Assembly: GCA_003168335.1 (NCBI GenBank)
Contig: PMSM01000007.1
Span: forward strand, 1 to 64,000
Direction: 5' to 3'
DNA length: 64,000 nt
DNA from: Blastocatellia bacterium
Lineage (GTDB): Bacteria; Acidobacteriota; Blastocatellia; Pyrinomonadales; Pyrinomonadaceae
In this document: positions 8,196-63,228 of the stretch, one piece after another
How the letters are laid out: every line of letters begins with the position of its first letter
Position numbering within the stretch: the first letter of the stretch is position 1
Position numbers and translations under genes: made by a program
Notes under the pieces: model-generated
The model's database searches: none
Seen by the model: the letters and a program-made list of their open reading frames with translations, nothing else
What the model was told of the DNA's origin: nothing

Positions 8196-8249
8196 CAAAA
8201 AAACCGCCCCACCTAAAATCAAAAAGGATGGAACGGTCAGCGGATGGCT

Positions 8250-8422
8250 GTTTCTCCCTTCGACGGTGTTAACCGTATCAGGTTCAAGGGGTCTCTGGAA
8301 GAATTTCGAATTGCGGAATGCGAATTTCGGATTTAACAACCCGGGGCTTCAATTCGCAATTCGCAATCCGAATTTCGCAATTCTCTCCGGACTCTCAGCC
8401 ACCAGTGCGGCTCCCCCGAAAC
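8250..8422 (-). promoter_or_regulatory. TPP (THI-box) riboswitch upstream of thiC
   Basis: On the minus strand, 5' to 3': GTTTC (P1, 8418-8422), GGGGGAGCC, GGCTGAGAG, a long insert, then AGACCCCTTGAACCTGAT, ACGGTTAACACCGTCGAAGGGA, and GAAAC closing P1 (8250-8254). CTGAGA, ACCTGAT and GAAGGGA are the conserved thiamine-pyrophosphate aptamer signatures. About 95 bases between CTGAGAG and AGACCCC form an enlarged, A/T-rich, self-complementary P3 arm. Position directly ahead of thiC gives the expected feedback control by TPP. The expression platform is not obvious because a repeat occupies 8099-8195. Confidence 0.95.
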
Positions 8423-8510
8423 GTATTTGATTTTCAATCTGTCGCAAGGGATTCTAGAACCAGAAGGCGTCAACTGCAAACTGAAATGGAAATGGTGAGC
8501 TTGAGTTTGG

Positions 8511-11857: not shown

Positions 11858-11952
11858 GTCAGTACCGGGAGCGGTAGCGACCGGGTCTCGTCCTCGCGAT
11901 CTCGGACCTCGTGGAGTGTTGAGACCCAGTCGCTACCGCTCCCGGTACTGAC
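11858..11952. repeat. Inverted-repeat element with 32-base arms
   Basis: Arms at 11858-11889 and 11921-11952 are reverse complements with one mismatch, around a 31-base centre. The right arm recurs exactly at 1-24. The element sits between the convergent peroxiredoxin and S9-peptidase genes and could fold as a strong hairpin at both 3' ends. Confidence 0.88.
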
Positions 11953-18717: not shown

Positions 18718-18850
18718 ATAGCCTGGGCCAACGGCCCAGGTAGATCGTGGGAAAAGATAATGAGCGCTGAAAGCGCGAAATCAACCATGACATTTCGCGC
18801 TTTCAGCGCTTCAAGAAATACTGGGGGCCTTGTACCTGGGGCGCTGCCCC
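18718..18850. repeat. Palindromic repeats in gap 18650-18995 before recF
   Basis: GCCTGGGCCAACGGCCCAGG, GAGCGCTGAAAGCGCG and TTTCGCGCTTTCAGCGCT palindromes are present, the same set as at 50413-50650. The gap 18650-18995 separates divergent moaA and recF. A longer open frame across it (from 18652) is repeat-derived and is not credible. Confidence 0.7.
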
Positions 18851-18995
18851 GGGCTTTTGCATTACGCGCCCATGGCGCTTTGAAAAGCGAATCACGGGTC
18901 TTGTGCAGCCTCCCAGATCACGCGTGGGATCATTGCTTTTATCTTCGCTCGAAGATCGCCACAGCAAAGCAAGAGGCTATGTTAGAATTTCACCC

Positions 18996-22680: not shown

Positions 22681-24096
22681 CTAAGACTCTTCCCCATATC
22701 TATCGGCGCGAAAGCGCCAGAGCCTGATCGGATCTCCCGCGGGAATTCCCGCCTTGCGCGAAGCGATTTCTACCTGCTGGGCCACCGTTTCAATTCCTTT
22801 AAGACTAGGCAGCAACAAAGCGCGGCGCACTCCGTTTTGGTCTTCGACGATTACGCCATAAACCCGCGGGTCGAGGTCGTCGAGTTTGACTGGTTCGGGT
22901 GGCGAAAGCACATCAACCGAATACTTCAATCCTGGGAGCTCGTCTGCGCGCACGGGTGTGAAACGCGGATCACGGGTAGCCGCGCTGATTGAGTTGATGA
23001 TCACTTCCTGGGCCAACGTGTCCTTCTCCGGTTCGACCGTGCCAATGCACCCGCGCAGCTCCCCCGCGCGAGTTTTGATCGAGACAAAGCAGCCGGCGCG
23101 TTGACTGAGCAGTTCGGAAGGGTTCTCAGGTGCCTTGATCACTTTGCCTTCCTTAACGAAAGTCTCAACTACCTGGCGAGCGAGAACGGGCAACTCTGTA
23201 CCGGTCTTTTCAGTGAGGACCTGAGCGCGCTCTGCGGACGAGTCGAGCACCCCAGCCGGGCTGCCCGGCCGGGGACCCCGCACGTCCGCGCTCCCAGCAA
23301 ACAGTTGCGCGACGAGATAACCAACGCCGAACGGCGCTTCATAACTGATCACTTCACAAGATGGTTCGAGTTCCTGCGCGACTCCGATTGCGACCAGCAT
23401 CGAGCGATAGCCACATTCTCCTGCCATCCGGCGCAACTCCGGATCCAGATCAACAATGCGATTGGTAGCGCAACTGCGAATCGCGTCGACCACCTCTTCG
23501 TCGAACAGGTGCGCTTGCGGGTTGTAGCCGGCGGGCGCCTCGAGCTTCAGCCGGTGACTGAGATCGCCGCTGGCGATAAAGGCGACCGGTCGCCCCACCT
23601 GTTCGACGGCTGCCCGGATGCACTTGCCGAATCGCACGTGTTCTTCGTTGGAAAGAAAGCTGTAGCCCAACGCGACCACCCTTCCCTGCCAACCGTGGCG
23701 TTGCAGAAAGTAGAGGGGAACGGCGGTGCCATGATCGAGATCTACCCCCCGGATTCTGATCGTCGCCAGATCTTGTTCAGCCGCAGTGCGCGTGATCTCG
23801 GTGAGTAACTCGTCGTCCAGTTCGGCCTGAACGGTCGCGGTAGGCGCCCGGAAGTTCGCAAAGTCGGCATGCAGTTGTGGCCCATCGTACGCGACAAACG
23901 CTTCAGGCTCGAGCGGTGCGTGCGGCGAAATCAGAATGACAGTCTCAGCGCCGCTGCGGACCACGCGTTCGGTGAGATCGGCCATCGCATCGATCGAGTT
24001 GCGCACTTCGACAATCGCCTCACGTCCGACTTCCGGCACCATGATCGGAGGATGCGGGGCAATTCCAGCGAAGACCAGAGAACTCGTGTTGGCCAT
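22681..24096 (-). CDS. AmmeMemoRadiSam fusion: MEMO (protein B) + AMMECR1 (protein A)
   Basis: 471 residues in two domains. Residues 1-265 are the MEMO/class III extradiol dioxygenase-like fold (FAGIAPHPPIMVPEVGRE; ILISPHAPL; GVDLDHGTAVPLYFL; FIASGDLSHRL), with His residues where the metal is bound in LigB-like enzymes. Residues about 295-471 are AMMECR1 (GCFVSIKTRAGELRGCIGTV; NSISAATRDPRFTPVRADEL; YGVIVEDQNGVRRALLLPSL). In many prokaryotes these two are separate genes beside a radical-SAM gene; that third member is absent here. The linker (residues about 267-289, SADVRGPRPGSPAGVLDSS) is encoded by a palindromic repeat also found at 54140. Biochemical role unknown. Confidence 0.9.
   Translation of the reverse strand: MANTSSLVFAGIAPHPPIMVPEVGREAIVEVRNSIDAMADLTERVVRSGAETVILISPHAPLEPEAFVAYDGPQLHADFANFRAPTATVQAELDDELLTEITRTAAEQDLATIRIRGVDLDHGTAVPLYFLQRHGWQGRVVALGYSFLSNEEHVRFGKCIRAAVEQVGRPVAFIASGDLSHRLKLEAPAGYNPQAHLFDEEVVDAIRSCATNRIVDLDPELRRMAGECGYRSMLVAIGVAQELEPSCEVISYEAPFGVGYLVAQLFAGSADVRGPRPGSPAGVLDSSAERAQVLTEKTGTELPVLARQVVETFVKEGKVIKAPENPSELLSQRAGCFVSIKTRAGELRGCIGTVEPEKDTLAQEVIINSISAATRDPRFTPVRADELPGLKYSVDVLSPPEPVKLDDLDPRVYGVIVEDQNGVRRALLLPSLKGIETVAQQVEIASRKAGIPAGDPIRLWRFRADRYGEES
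23232..23297. repeat. In-frame repeat copy within MEMO-AMMECR1 linker
   Basis: This stretch is nearly identical, on the opposite strand, to 54138-54204 in an intergenic gap. Two differences in about 66 bases fall at paired positions of one hairpin stem (GCCGGG-CAG-CCCGGC here, GCGGGG-CAG-CCCCGC there, in coding orientation). It is read in frame. The right arm of the full-length intergenic element appears to be missing here. Confidence 0.85.
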
Positions 24097-28713: not shown

Positions 28714-28739
28714 GCTGGCAGAATTACGAGCCGCGTTCG

Positions 28740-28990
28740 CGCGGCTTGGCCCGCAGGGGCGGGGTCCCGCGCGGGCAGCCCGCGGTGGGGTGCCGGTTAC
28801 TAGCCCAGCCGTTTTACGGCTGGGTCAGCAGCGACGAAAGATGCCGAAAGCCTGCTTCAGCGGGCTTATTTCATTGGTGGCTTTAGCCGGATGCTCAAGC
28901 GCGATGGTAAGCACGCTGAAGCGTGCGGTCGCGGTGATCGCGCAGCGTTCAACCAGCGCTCAAAGCGCGGGCCTGGCAACCCATTGACCG
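28740..28990. repeat. Cluster of palindromic repeats in gap 28714-29140
   Basis: At about 28755-28797 is a diverged copy of the 54140 element (GGGGTCCC, stem CGCGGG-CAG-CCCGCG, then TGGGGTG). It is followed by CAGCCGTTTTACGGCTG, AAGCCTGCTTCAGCGGGCTT and GCACGCTGAAGCGTGC hairpins. No gene is seen in 28714-29140. Confidence 0.7.
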
Positions 28991-32794: not shown

Positions 32795-32814
32795 TTAATC
32801 AGCCGGCGGAGCGG

Positions 32815-33090
32815 GCGATAGCATAAAGCCCGGGGCGTAAGCCCCAGGAACGAGTAATCCAAGATTCGCCAGCCCGTGAAACGGGGACAGCGCGAACACC
32901 ACGTACCATTCTCGAATTTATTATTGCATGCAGATCGTGAATGGGCTGTGCTGCCATCCGGACCGCGGGTTGGTGATCGTTGTTGGTGTTCGATTCTGGG
33001 GCTCCGCCCCAGGCTTTATGCTGATGCCTGCTCCGCAGGCTATCGAACTCGCTGCACAGATGCCCTCCCTGACGGTCGGGCTTCTGACAC
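32815..33090. repeat. Repeat remnants in gap 32795-33090
   Basis: AAGCCCGGGGCGTAAGCCCC, GCCCGTGAAACGGG, GGGGCTCCGCCCC and a half TGTCAGAAGCCCG-type arm (ending about 33091) are visible. No gene is credible here. Confidence 0.6.
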
Positions 33091-34956: not shown

Positions 34957-35055
34957 GGCTTTTGGAACGGGTAACTTAGGCTTAACAAAAGATCGTTCCC
35001 GGTGATGCTTCTAAGAGGGAAGCGTTCTATGAGCCATCGAAGATGGCGGCAGATT

Positions 35056-35195
35056 GTAGCCCCGGGCGTAAGCCCGGGGACCAGTGCCGCAAAAAATAAC
35101 AAGCCCTCGAGGAGGGCGACCGAAACTTCTGTCGCCCCTACTTGGCTCTGGGACCTTCAGGGTAACGCTACCCCCGGGCTTACGCCCGGGGCTAC
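35056..35195. repeat. Inverted-repeat element in gap 34957-35327
   Basis: Perfect 24-base arms at 35056-35079 and 35172-35195, each a palindrome around CCCGGGCGTAAGCCCGGG. The centre holds a GAGGGCGACC...GTCGCCC pair. The remainder of 34957-35327 shows a CCGCAAACGCGG hairpin but no gene and no clear promoter for the PfkB gene. Confidence 0.87.
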
Positions 35196-35327
35196 TAATA
35201 TGCCGCCCGCAAACGCGGGCTTGTCGAGCGGTATCTCTGCAGATTGGTCAAACCTCATCGTCTTTTCTCAATTCCAAACTCCAGTTTCCATCATAATAGC
35301 CCATTGAGAACGGACCCCGAAACTAAC

Positions 35328-37624: not shown

Positions 37625-37960
37625 GAATTGTTTTCGGTTTCGAGTTTCGAGTAGCCCGTGAAACGGGCGGGAGCGTAAAGCCTGGGGCGTGAGCCCCAGG
37701 TTCCAAAGGAGTGCGGAGTGCAAGCCCGCGAAGCGGGTGACGGCGCTTTACAGATAATGCTTATCGAACTCGATCTCATACGCTTTCAGAAACGGGCGGC
37801 GATCTTTCGGCGGCAAATAACTCGGCAGAAAAGACTCGGGTACGACGGAGACTTAGGCTGTCGCCCGCTAAGCGGGCTCGCGCCATTGCATGGCTTCCTA
37901 TCCAGGGGCTGACGCCCCAGGCTTTATGCTGCTGCCCGCCCAGCGGGCTGATTCCATTTC
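37625..37960. other. Repeat-rich gap between MFS and DoxX genes
   Basis: Hairpins GCCCGTGAAACGGGC, GCCTGGGGCGTGAGCCCCAGG and CCCGCTAAGCGGG are visible, and two GGAGTGCG/GGAGTGC-like fragments near 37714. No gene is supported. Confidence 0.55.
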
Positions 37961-50412: not shown

Positions 50413-50650
50413 GGCCGCTCCGCGGGTTTGTTCAAGCGCCAAAGGCGCGAAATGTAAAAGCCTGGGCCAACGGCCCAGGTTGGGTCATTTTGTAAAAGAC
50501 AATGAGCGCTGAAGGCGCGGAATAGAATTGAGTTCTCCTCACAAATTATTTCGCGCCTTCAGCGCTCAGACTTGTTTTGCGGTTATTGATCCAGGGGCGA
50601 CGCTTCGCTTGCCCCTGGCTATTACATCTCACGCCTTCAGCGTGAACATC
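50413..50650. repeat. Palindromic repeat cluster in gap 50400-50656
   Basis: AGCGCCAAAGGCGCG, GCCTGGGCCAACGGCCCAGG, GAGCGCTGAAGGCGCG and TTTCGCGCCTTCAGCGCTC hairpins, like those at 18718-18850. No gene is seen. Confidence 0.72.
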
Positions 50651-51902: not shown

Positions 51903-51984
51903 CCGAAGACCAGTCTCCTCGTCTTCGTGTATCATGTGTCAGCTTCAAGCCACTAAACCCAATGACTGGTCGGAGAGAATTCTC

Positions 51985-54087
51985 ATGAAAATGTCTCGTG
52001 GATTGCTTTCTATCTTGACGCTGGTCGCCTGCTTGTTCTTCCTGACCGGCCTGGTCTCTGCGCAACCCTCTCCACGCAGCATCACACCCGAAGACTATTT
52101 TTCGTTTGAGTTCATCAGCGATCCGAACATTTCGCCTGATGGAAAGCTGGTCGCGTATGTCTTAACGAAAGTTGATCGCGGACAGAACCGGCGCAACTCT
52201 TCGATCTGGATGGTCGGGACCGACGGCAGCCGCGCGGCGTGGCAATTTACAACCTCTCCACAGTCTTCCACTTCGCCGCGCTGGAGTCCTGACGGAAAGT
52301 CGCTGGCGTTTCTCTCATCGCGGCCGGAAACGACTCCGGCGGCCGCGCCGGCCGCAGGCGCCGCTGCAACCGCAACCGCAGAGCCACCACGCGCACAGAT
52401 TTATGTACTTTCAATGAACGGTGGTGAAGCAAAGCGAATCACGAATCTCAAAAACGGAGTGGGCGTCTTTCGCTGGTCGCCGGATGGAACACGTTTCGTT
52501 GTTGTCAGTCGCATAGGACCCAGCGACAGCCGCGCCGACAGCCGCGACCGCAGCGACGTCCGTCATTACAAGAACACCTCGTACAAGTTCAACGACACGG
52601 GTTGGTTTGATGATCGTCGCACGCATCTCTGGGTCGTCGAGATGAAGTCAGGCAGCGCCAAACAGATCACCGAAGGCAACGATTGGAACGACAGCGATCC
52701 GCAGTGGTCGCCGGACGGAACCCGCCTCGCTTTTGTTTCGAACCGCACCGGCAAAGAGTACGAAGAGAACAGAAATACTGACGTTTGGGTGATTAGTGCG
52801 GAGGGTGGCAAGCTCACAAAAATCTCGGATCACGACGAAGCCGACAATCAGCCGCGTTGGTCGCCCGACGGAAGGTGGATTGCCTTTACAGGTGAAATAC
52901 ACGATCGCGATCATCCAAAGATATTTCTGGCGCCCTCGGCGGGCGGGACGCCGTCAACGCTGGCGGCCAACGGACTCGATCTGATTCCGGGTGGACTCGA
53001 GTGGTCAGAGGACGGCGGGTCTCTCTATTTTGAAACGGGTGTGAAGGGCGAGAATCATTTGTTCCGCGTCGACCTGGCCACGAAATCGGTGGCGCAGGTT
53101 ACCTCGGGCGCGCGTGCCGTGCGCGGTGTCGATTTCAATTGGCGGACAAAGACGATCGTCTATGAGGCTAACACCTTCAAGCATCTCGACGATCTCTATG
53201 TCGCGGATCTCGACGGAAGGAACGAGCGCAAACTCACCAATCTGAATGAAGCGCTGTGGAAGCAATTACAACTCGCCGACGTCGAGCGCTTTACTTACAA
53301 GAGCGCCGATGATTGGGACGTCGACGGCTTTCTGGTAAAACCGATTGGTTGGCAAGCAGGCAAAAAGTATCCTCTGATTCTCAGCATTCATGGCGGGCCT
53401 GCGGGCCAGTATGGCGTCGATTGGTATCACGAATTTCAGGTTTACGCGGCGAAGGGTTACGCCGTGCTGTTTACGAATCCGCGCGGGTCGACCGGCTATG
53501 GTCAGAAATTCGAACGCGGCATATTCAACGAGTGGGGCGGCAAGGACTATCAGGACGTCATGAATGGTCTCGACGCCGCGCTGAAAAGATATCCGTGGAT
53601 CGACACAGATCGCATGGGCGTCACGGGCGGAAGTTACGGCGGCTTTATGACCAACTGGATCCTGGGCCACACCGATCGTTTCAAAGCCGCGGTCACCCTG
53701 CGCAGCCTTTCCAATTTCATCTCAGACGATGGCACGCGCGACGGTGCTTATGGCCACACCTCGGACTTCGGCGGCGACATATTTCAAAAATTCGAGCTCT
53801 ACTGGGATCGCTCACCATTAAAGTATGCCAGGAACGTCAAGACGCCGACGCTGATCCTGCATTCAGACAACGACTATCGCGTGCCGATCGAACAGGGCGA
53901 GCAATGGTTTCGCGCGCTCAAACATTTCGGCGTGACGACAGAGATCGTTTTCTTTCCGCGCGAGAACCACAATCTTACCCGCACCGGAGAGCCAAAGCAT
54001 CTGGTCGAGAGTTTGAACTGGCAACTTTACTGGTTTGACAGATTTCTAAATGGAAACACGAGCGCCGTGCCTCCGGATGCGAAGTGA
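51985..54087 (+). CDS. Secreted S9-family prolyl oligopeptidase-like peptidase
   Basis: 700 residues from ATG 51985 with GGAG about 10 bases upstream. Signal peptide MKMSRGLLSILTLVACLFFLTGLVSA. Beta-propeller with WSPDG repeats from residue 40 to 400, interrupted by an Ala/Pro/Thr low-complexity insert (PETTPAAAPAAGAAATATAE). Hydrolase domain: HGGPAGQYG, nucleophile GGSYGGFM (Ser 550), Asp in LHSDNDYRVP, His in PRENHNLTR. Same class as the gene at 11971, only partly similar in sequence by eye, so probably an older paralogue. Cleaves short peptides. Confidence 0.93.
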   Translation: MKMSRGLLSILTLVACLFFLTGLVSAQPSPRSITPEDYFSFEFISDPNISPDGKLVAYVLTKVDRGQNRRNSSIWMVGTDGSRAAWQFTTSPQSSTSPRWSPDGKSLAFLSSRPETTPAAAPAAGAAATATAEPPRAQIYVLSMNGGEAKRITNLKNGVGVFRWSPDGTRFVVVSRIGPSDSRADSRDRSDVRHYKNTSYKFNDTGWFDDRRTHLWVVEMKSGSAKQITEGNDWNDSDPQWSPDGTRLAFVSNRTGKEYEENRNTDVWVISAEGGKLTKISDHDEADNQPRWSPDGRWIAFTGEIHDRDHPKIFLAPSAGGTPSTLAANGLDLIPGGLEWSEDGGSLYFETGVKGENHLFRVDLATKSVAQVTSGARAVRGVDFNWRTKTIVYEANTFKHLDDLYVADLDGRNERKLTNLNEALWKQLQLADVERFTYKSADDWDVDGFLVKPIGWQAGKKYPLILSIHGGPAGQYGVDWYHEFQVYAAKGYAVLFTNPRGSTGYGQKFERGIFNEWGGKDYQDVMNGLDAALKRYPWIDTDRMGVTGGSYGGFMTNWILGHTDRFKAAVTLRSLSNFISDDGTRDGAYGHTSDFGGDIFQKFELYWDRSPLKYARNVKTPTLILHSDNDYRVPIEQGEQWFRALKHFGVTTEIVFFPRENHNLTRTGEPKHLVESLNWQLYWFDRFLNGNTSAVPPDAK

Positions 54088-54139
54088 TGTGAGGAAGATT
54101 CTCGTCAAGTCAGTTGTCAGTTACGAGGCTTGTTATGCT

Positions 54140-54276
54140 GGGAGCGCGGACGTGCGGGGTCCCCGGCGGGGCAGCCCCGCTGGGGTGCTCGACTCGTCCG
54201 CACTGAGCGCGCAGCGCGAATACGGTCTTAACCGAAGAACTTTTCGCCGCTGTGCGGACGGGACGTCCGCGCTCCC
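54140..54276. repeat. Complete palindromic element (intergenic copy of MEMO-AMMECR1 insert)
   Basis: Perfect 14-base arms GGGAGCGCGGACGT (54140-54153) and ACGTCCGCGCTCCC (54263-54276). The first half, to about 54204, is almost identical in reverse orientation to 23232-23297 inside a gene. The centre contains TGAGCGCGCAGCGCG. The short open frame read through it is spurious. Confidence 0.87.
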
Positions 54277-54303
54277 GGCAATAAGGTGACCGCCGCCGAC
54301 AGA

Positions 54304-61185: not shown

Positions 61186-63228
61186 TCAAGGCTTCACTGG
61201 TTTCTTCACTGGCGGCACGGCTTTGGGAATGTCGCCGTCATCCACCAGATTCAGTTGCTGACTGTTTTCCTGTCCGTTTAATTTCGGAGGGCCGCCACGC
61301 AAGCCGGGTGGAAGTTTCGGCGCGGAAATTTTCACCGTCGCGAGGGCTTCGGTGCGCCGCAGGATCGCGCCGCCGCGTCCCGCGACCCAGGTGTTCGAGC
61401 CGCCACGATAAGCGACCGCGAACAGCGGCGAACTTGTAATCGTCGGCTGCACTTCCCAGGTTAATCCACCGTCCCGGGAAGCCAGCACGCAGCCCTGATC
61501 GCCGGCAATCAAGATGTCATCGCGTGAGGCAACTGAAATCGCAAACAGGTTTGTCTTCACACTGCTCTCTTGATCTTTCCAGGTCTTGCCGCCGTCTTCA
61601 GTGCGCAGAATGATCCCTTTCTCGCCGACCGCATAGCCGCGCGTTTGGTCCGCGAACGCCACGGCGTACAGCCACTCTCTCAAATTATGGGAAACGTCTT
61701 TCCACGTTTCACCGCCATCTTCAGTGCGCAGGATTGTGCCGCCGGAACCGACCGCGACGCCGTGCTTTTCGTCCACGAAGCGCACGTCTTCGAGCCAGGC
61801 TTTCGTCACCGCAGGAACCTGACGCCAGACTTTGCCGCCGTCTTCCGTTTTCAGGATGTTGCCGCGCGCACCGACGACCCAACCCCGCATGGCCGAAACA
61901 AAACACACGCCCAGCAATTCCTGTTGCGTATCGGTGGCTTGTGGCGCCCAGACGGTCCCCCCGTTTTCAGTATGCAGAATCGTTCCCTGTTCGCCGACGG
62001 CCCAACCGTTGTTTTCATCGATGAAAGTGATCGCGTCCAGACGCACGTTCGTGCCGGAGGGCCGGACCGTCCAGAGCTTGCCGCCTGAGTTGGTCGCCAG
62101 AATTTTTCCGTGCCCGCCGACCGCCCAGCCGCGCGAATTATCCAGAAAGAAAATGTCGGCCAGATCGTCGCGCCCGCCTTCGGTCAGACGCTGCCAGCCC
62201 AGGCCACCATCATCGCTCCGCAGCACCAGGCCGTCGTTGCCCGCGGTCCAGCCCGTGTTCTCGTCAGCAAAGTAAACGGTCACCAGCCGCGGATTGGTCC
62301 TGACGCTGGCGGGCAACCAAAGCTTGCCGCCGGTCGCTGTGCTTAGCACCAGGCCATTGTCACCGGAGATCCACCCATGCTGCTCGTCTGAAAAAAAGAC
62401 TGAGAACAAATCGTTGGTCATCAGAACGTCGACGGGTTCCCAGGTCAAGCCGGCGTCGTTGCTCAAGATCACACGTCCGCCATAGCCTACGGCCAGGGCC
62501 CGTTTGGGCGTGATGAAAGTTGCGCTCGTAAACGGAAGCGAGCCCAGCCGCACAGCTTCTTTCCAATGGCGCCCGCCATCAATTGTTCGCAGCACGGTGC
62601 CGCGATCGCCGGTGGCCAATCCGGTGTTCTTGTTGGCAAACGAAACTGTGTAAAGGTGAACGCGGGTCGGACTTTTTTGCGCGGTCCAGGTCAAACCGCC
62701 ATCAGTCGTCGTGATGATGCAACCGTAAGTACCCACGGCCCAACCATGAGATGGACTGTCGGTGGCAAACGTAATCGAGTAGAGATGATCTTTGGTCGGC
62801 GTGTGGATCTCGGTCCATTTCTCGCCGCCGTTTTTCGTAATCACTACGGTGCCACGCGCGCCGACAACTACGGCGCGCTTCGGATCCTGCACGTAGATTC
62901 CGTTGAGACTCGCGACCAGTCGCGCACGCTGGCTCTCCCACTGAAAGCCGCCGTCCGCGGAGTAAAGAATCACTCCGTCTGAGCCCACCGCCCAACCGTG
63001 GAGCTTGTCGCCGGCGAAACGAATGGCGTTGATGGCGTTACCCTGCGGCCGAGGGTTCTGCCATTCCCAGCCGCGGTCGGTCCTTTGGGCGAGGGTAGTA
63101 GCGGCCGGCGAAGTGACGATGAAGAGAATTGAAATCAACAGACTGAAACGCAGCGAAGTTCCTGGCAAAGAGCGCAAAGGAGTACCGCTTCGCGTTCCTT
63201 TGTGGGTACCCTTTGCGTTGAGGCTCAT
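61186..63228 (-). CDS. Large secreted Ycf48/BNR-like repeat protein
   Basis: 680 residues from ATG 63228 (MSLNAKGTHKGTRS); the extension to 63339 has no better start. Signal segment FSLLISILFIVTSPAATTLA. Then about a dozen repeats of the form GWAVGxxGxILxTxDGGxTWxxQ (residues about 55-620), the Ycf48/photosystem-II-stability-factor-like and BNR pattern that folds as a multibladed propeller. The C-terminal 45 residues are Pro/Lys-rich (GGPPKLNGQENSQQ...). In non-photosynthetic bacteria such proteins are secreted with unknown roles, probably binding. Isolated gene. Confidence 0.9.
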   Translation of the reverse strand: MSLNAKGTHKGTRSGTPLRSLPGTSLRFSLLISILFIVTSPAATTLAQRTDRGWEWQNPRPQGNAINAIRFAGDKLHGWAVGSDGVILYSADGGFQWESQRARLVASLNGIYVQDPKRAVVVGARGTVVITKNGGEKWTEIHTPTKDHLYSITFATDSPSHGWAVGTYGCIITTTDGGLTWTAQKSPTRVHLYTVSFANKNTGLATGDRGTVLRTIDGGRHWKEAVRLGSLPFTSATFITPKRALAVGYGGRVILSNDAGLTWEPVDVLMTNDLFSVFFSDEQHGWISGDNGLVLSTATGGKLWLPASVRTNPRLVTVYFADENTGWTAGNDGLVLRSDDGGLGWQRLTEGGRDDLADIFFLDNSRGWAVGGHGKILATNSGGKLWTVRPSGTNVRLDAITFIDENNGWAVGEQGTILHTENGGTVWAPQATDTQQELLGVCFVSAMRGWVVGARGNILKTEDGGKVWRQVPAVTKAWLEDVRFVDEKHGVAVGSGGTILRTEDGGETWKDVSHNLREWLYAVAFADQTRGYAVGEKGIILRTEDGGKTWKDQESSVKTNLFAISVASRDDILIAGDQGCVLASRDGGLTWEVQPTITSSPLFAVAYRGGSNTWVAGRGGAILRRTEALATVKISAPKLPPGLRGGPPKLNGQENSQQLNLVDDGDIPKAVPPVKKPVKP

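Follow-up and report, generated by a model that had tools for sequence, protein, structure and literature searches.

A 39-nt hairpin cassette nested in REP/REPIN-like repeats of Acidobacteriota, a probable non-autonomous single-strand element

Few bacterial repeats are as common as REPs, and we know of no settled account of how they insert. RAYT is a Y1, IS200/IS605-like transposase. Cyanobacteria also carry tiny, sequence-conserved repeats that look mobile, the very small dispersed repeats (SDR). At 39 nt, the cassette described here, from soil Acidobacteria, would be among the smallest mobile DNAs known to us. It resembles the REPs and REPINs of RAYT (TnpA_REP), the GTAG super-family, in being an imperfect, bulged hairpin (20-40 nt) of high copy number that folds on one strand, lies between genes and sometimes within them, and inserts without clear target duplication. 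The repeats that house it are themselves of the REP/REPIN kind. In contrast to GTAG REPs and REPINs, the cassette has no GTAG tag, no cognate RAYT was found adjoining it, and it lies inside other REP families instead of standing free.

Nesting has been described before. REPs occur inside palindromes in T. roseum (GTAG-23) and A. variabilis (GTAG-15 dimers), with hundreds of empty targets in the case of GTAG-23 (PMC3733652). These are likewise hairpin repeats inside another palindrome, but each of these REPs has one target consensus and carries GTAG, whereas the cassette is tagless and occupies about ten unrelated hosts in several Acidobacteriota families. In GTAG-3 the same REP stem bears either a short or a long, self-pairing loop (PMC3733652); both loop types there come from a single REP family, whereas the cassette is common to unrelated families and lies outside the hairpin in two of them (hosts A and H, below). 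Rickettsia palindromic elements (RPE) lie in frame in protein genes, as one of our copies does, but the cassette differs from them in being a 39-nt unit that is nested in another repeat and is mostly intergenic. In the open-access literature we found no report of one tagless cassette common to many unrelated REP families.

The cassette, its hosts and its distribution

The window analysed here comprises positions 1-64000 of a contig in a 5.16-Mb draft genome of a Blastocatellia bacterium (Acidobacteriota, Pyrinomonadaceae). The features under discussion are:

22681-24096 (-): ORF of 471 aa with LigB/MEMO and AMMECR1 domains; composite 1 lies in the inter-domain linker
23221-23299 (-): composite 1, host repeat B (TGCTGGGAGCGCGGACGT...CTCGTCCGCAGAGCGCG), whose loop holds cassette 1
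23243-23281 (-): cassette copy 1, 39 nt, - strand sequence GCGGGGTCCCCGGCCGGGCAGCCCGGCTGGGGTGCTCGA, keeping frame within the MEMO-AMMECR1 linker; boundaries set by empty host B (GCGGACGT / CTCGTCCGC)
28730-28824 (+): host repeat H of copy 3, consisting of hairpin GCCGCGTTCGCGCGGC, a cassette-bearing linker and hairpin CCCAGCCGTTTTACGGCTGGG
28758-28796 (+): cassette copy 3, 39 nt, with a diverged stem (covariance model E 2e-6)
51934-54087: Peptidase_S9 gene, which neighbours composite 2, as does an ORF at 54286
54136-54214 (+): composite 2, host repeat B plus cassette 2, intergenic
54154-54192 (+): cassette copy 2, 39 nt
54254-54272 (-): empty inverted host B repeat GCGCGGACGTCCCGTCCGC, partner arm of composite 54136-54214
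11859-11951: empty host G inverted pair, TCAGTACCGGGAGCGGTAGCG, for comparison; arms 11859-11879 (+) and 11931-11951 (-)
50445-50466 (-): empty host A repeat, for comparison, inside an Acido-Lenti-1 (RF01687) match at 50435-50479

The window also contains a TPP riboswitch (8238-8427, -) with a 94-nt insertion in a variable helix, and repeats of 123-nt period (61574-62103) that probably encode a 41-residue protein repeat.

An initial annotation of this DNA had noted near-identical repeats on opposite strands. Indeed, 23221-23299 (-) and 54136-54214 (+) are 92% identical over 79 nt (E 3e-26), and the compensated change that it described in the central stem is present (GCCGGG/CCCGGC to GCGGGG/CCCCGC around the loop CAG). 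The third, diverged copy that it proposed is the same hairpin with a different complementary stem (28758-28796). Its 66-bp repeat did not hold up as the shared unit: only the inner 39-nt cassette is common to the three copies. Outside it, copies 1 and 2 consist of host repeat B, and copy 3 is embedded in the unrelated host H; cassette-free examples of both hosts exist.

A covariance model search of the genome found ~58 copies (best E 3e-15), which places the resemblance far outside what chance would give. In alignments of these copies only the inner hairpin is common; the surroundings are unrelated repeats, roughly ten in number, which are also present uninterrupted. The empty junctions, with the insertion point at the stroke, are:

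Host A: CCCAGG / CTTTTACATTTCGCGC
Host B: GCGGACGT / CTCGTCCGC
Host C: GCCCGACC / GTnAGGGAGGGC
Host D: GCGGCGACA / AGTCGCCG
Host E: GCGGAAAGG / CTATGCCTTTCCG
Host F: GCACGCGCAT / CTTGCGCGTG
Host G: ACCGGGAGCGG / TAGCGACCGG
Host H: GCCCGCAGG / TTRCTAGCCC, beside the RAYT locus L035
Host I: GCGCCGGCAGAGC / GCAGCGGCGACGGCGC

To find empty sites, the two flanks of each of 58 sampled copies were joined and compared with ~1.6 Mb of sequence for an uninterrupted counterpart. A well-matched empty host was obtained for 42 of the 58, and in 32 of these 42 the insert was uniquely 39 nt. Joined flanks gave at least 32 of 40 matches for 38 of 58 copies, compared with 0 of 58 when the right flank was reversed; mispaired flanks matched chiefly where both belonged to one host family. 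Host B occurs uninterrupted at 136 places in the genome (at most one mismatch; 31 places for the pattern read backwards) and is filled at about a dozen. The boundary between empty and filled forms can be placed in one way only for A, B and E, which means that these three hosts show no duplicated target bases. The combination of terminal inverted repeats with target-site duplication that marks a MITE was not found. Its orientation is constant within each host.

No constant GTAG or CGTC tag was found at the cassette, which ends in GC..GCTMGA or (A)CC..GGT, and none of 44 RAYT loci is flanked by it. Two loci that had been taken for cassette-flanked RAYTs (L170, L172) proved on inspection to have other flanking sequences. 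The cassette is a short palindromic repeat in many copies (~58 of 39 nt), as REPs are; because it has neither the tag nor the flanked RAYT we do not file it in the GTAG REP family. As far as the sequences allow, it behaves as an element of the REP/REPIN kind outside that family.

The cassette was present in all seven same-genus genomes tested (2 to 63 copies each) and, in a sample of the family, in two more genera (24 copies and 1). Among 40 relatives it was found in 9 and was absent from 31. Across the phylum it occurred in 8 of 297 genomes, in four families, with up to ~20 scored copies each. One of these, a distant Acidobacteriota family, has the cassette within a further common hairpin repeat, and at one locus of that family (L188 in genome G174, about 1464-1541) two cassettes stand in tandem at a 38-nt period inside a CACCCCGGCGAAAGCCGGGGTCC repeat. 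No viral contig searched matched the exact cassette pattern, and no plasmid searched matched the cassette.

Conservation of the hairpin

On the GGGGTCCCC strand the cassette folds into at least two outer pairs, a 5-nt GGGGT bulge facing T, and an 11-bp stem. The loop is GCA(G/T), that is CAG or CAT, and the GGGGT bulge is conserved. In 30 copies pairing is maintained in 94.5% of cells, and six pairs have changed on both sides (32 cells). The covariation score of these copies was reached by none of 500 shuffles, and pairing falls to 42-61% when the partner positions are slid. Among 70 distinct sequences, which were prefiltered for hairpins and GGGGT so that their percentages are upper estimates, there are 132 two-sided cells, compared with at most 59 in 1000 shuffles.

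The wobble pairs are asymmetric. One conserved pair is G.T in 40 cases, A-T in 29 and A.C in none; the remaining pairs include 14 G.T and 3 A.C. The excess of G.T over A.C indicates that the constraint acts on the GGGGTCCCC strand alone and, judged from these substitutions, shows this to be the folding strand. Folding as DNA gave the same nested hairpin, with -25.8 kcal/mol for the GGGGTCCCC strand and -21.7 kcal/mol for the other. The earlier proposal that the hairpin is under selection is therefore borne out by strong two-sided covariation and by the strand-specific wobble asymmetry. Broken stems or a lack of further copies had been named as what would speak against it; further copies exist, and pairing is kept in ~95% of cells.

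Host repeats and RAYT genes

Analysis of the genome gave 14 Y1_Tnp matches (L031-L044), most of them flanked by inverted copies of some repeat. Host A flanks L031 in this way, host H L035 and host G L044, and inverted copies of A, G or H also stand on both sides of Y1_Tnp in relatives (L157, L163 and L180 among the loci). This arrangement marks A, G and H as RAYT-associated REPs. No RAYT flanked by host B or C was found, so that for these two the REP label rests on their form and their inverted pairs. The genome thus holds many different RAYT genes, most with an inverted flanking repeat of its own, a rich set of REPtrons for comparing RAYT specificity.

Host repeats in the window are mostly inverted, REPIN-like pairs. 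The composite at 54136-54214 and the repeat at 54254-54272 form a REPIN with one arm filled. Wherever a filled arm has a detectable inverted REPIN partner, the partner is empty (26 of 26). L074, L082, L085 and L079 belong to one REPIN family, with a common spacer; the first three carry the cassette in one arm and L079 carries it in the opposite arm, which suggests separate insertions; an inversion between the arms may give the same pattern.

Matches to the Rfam "sRNA" family Acido-Lenti-1 (RF01687) also form inverted pairs in the window (35032-35079, 50435-50479, 37653-37700, 35172-35221, 32801-32848, 18835-18879 and others). In several genomes this family stands inverted on both sides of RAYT genes, at six loci in all (L031, L032, L037, L157, L163, L165). 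Given this placement, Acido-Lenti-1 most likely represents a DNA repeat, a REP tied to RAYT, and not an sRNA.

Origin of the cassette

The initial annotation had left a choice between a structural RNA and a mobile DNA hairpin, and the evidence favours the second. We put at roughly 0.6 the probability that the cassette is a single-strand hairpin element, nested and non-autonomous, for which other mobile hairpins serve as landing sites and which is probably moved by RAYT-type chemistry. What the sequences supply is a constant insert size, empty hosts, host diversity, a conserved structure, strand asymmetry and patchiness. Mobility in particular is indicated by the precise 39-nt insertion in many host repeats, by the patchy occurrence and by presence and absence at the same gene.

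On this reading, insertion into or next to the hairpins of some ten REP/REPIN families would have happened many times over, always in a single orientation for a given host. The cassette would travel as folded single-stranded DNA, and REP hairpins would be targeted because they are extruded or exposed as single strands and can absorb an insertion. Cutting and joining would be carried out in trans by a RAYT-type HUH enzyme, and the composites would then also spread along with their hosts. TnpA_REP recognises bulges and loops and cuts single-stranded REP substrates between C and T, on either side (PMC8266576). In hosts A, B, E and F, CT directly follows the cassette, which together with this cutting specificity favours a RAYT-type mechanism. 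Hosts C, D, G, H and I, about half, have no CT after the cassette, and this argues against such a mechanism, as do the missing cognate RAYT and GTAG tag. A bias toward the lagging strand was considered and set aside: strand runs on contig C23 of genome G005 looked suggestive, but GC skew in the genus is too weak to define replichores.

The main rival, which we regard as unlikely though well ahead of the other alternatives, is that the cassette is an alternative apical-loop module, passed among REP families through recombination, gene conversion or template switching, duplicated along with the host that carries it, and lacking any insertion chemistry of its own. Short and long self-complementary loops do coexist among GTAG-3 (E. 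coli-type) REPs (PMC3733652). At its outer base pairs the cassette differs between hosts (GC/GC or CC/GG), and certain core variants are limited to one host (CCGAGCAKCTCGG in host A), both of which fit a loop module; host-specific outer pairs would also arise if composites evolved and spread in part together with their hosts. In favour of insertion, cores identical over 31 nt are present in as many as four unrelated host families, where partial convergence is possible because few stem pairs vary. Against exchange of loops, no sequence that could guide recombination is common to the junctions of hosts A, B, C, G and H, the insert is constantly 39 nt long, and the cassette lies beside the hairpin, outside the loop, in A and H.

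A structured RNA, either a small RNA or a cis-regulatory or processing hairpin whose fold is selected in transcripts, would account for the strong covariation, for compensatory changes that keep base pairs and for a fold on one strand. The orientation of the cassette to genes is nevertheless random: with ORFs from a home-made, coding-composition-based caller, three genome sets gave 23 sense and 21 antisense copies in the gaps between tandem genes and 15 sense and 12 antisense copies inside ORFs. A sense bias downstream of genes, seen with a cruder first ORF caller, was gone with this one. The Rfam search matched no family at the three window copies, and copy number ranges from 2 to 63 inside one genus. 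The lack of orientation bias makes a transcribed RNA role unlikely, and we consider a structured RNA quite improbable.

The MEMO-AMMECR1 linker bears on the same question. Copy 1 is in frame in the 471-aa ORF (39 nt is 13 codons), whereas most other copies are intergenic; the nearest relatives found with this protein are MAGs of Acidobacteriota, of which one is named gp4, and Pyrinomonas methylaliphatogenes. The cassette is sense in this linker, whereas in the relative G005 it is antisense and in a different host repeat, which counts against an RNA. By repeat classes assigned by eye from sequence, the same linker holds an empty, in-frame host B repeat in G004, an inverted pair of host-G-like repeats in G003 and B-like repeats in G006, all without the cassette. 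On this comparison the LigB/MEMO-AMMECR1 linker is an in-frame REP landing site within the genus.

That the cassette is a protein-binding or cruciform DNA site of non-mobile origin, serving chromosome organisation or transcription termination, is very improbable: GC-rich hairpins in gaps suit such roles, which have been ascribed to REPs in other bacteria (PMC3733652), but most same-family genomes have no cassette, and it also occurs inside genes, is mostly nested in other repeats and has no preferred orientation to genes.

Returning to the nested single-strand element, we propose more tentatively, at a little short of even odds, that it is a hyperparasitic hairpin, which would be specialised for insertion into hairpins belonging to many unrelated REP/REPIN families, be recognised as a folded single strand, and be moved in trans by its hosts' RAYTs or by another enzyme. 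A 39-nt unit with exact boundaries, empty forms of about ten targets and more than 50 copies in a genome would provide a footprint of single-strand hairpin insertion that is testable with purified RAYTs. The analysis also re-reads an Rfam "sRNA" family, Acido-Lenti-1, as a probable transposase-linked DNA repeat, and it suggests that even very small mobile DNAs may have parasites of their own.
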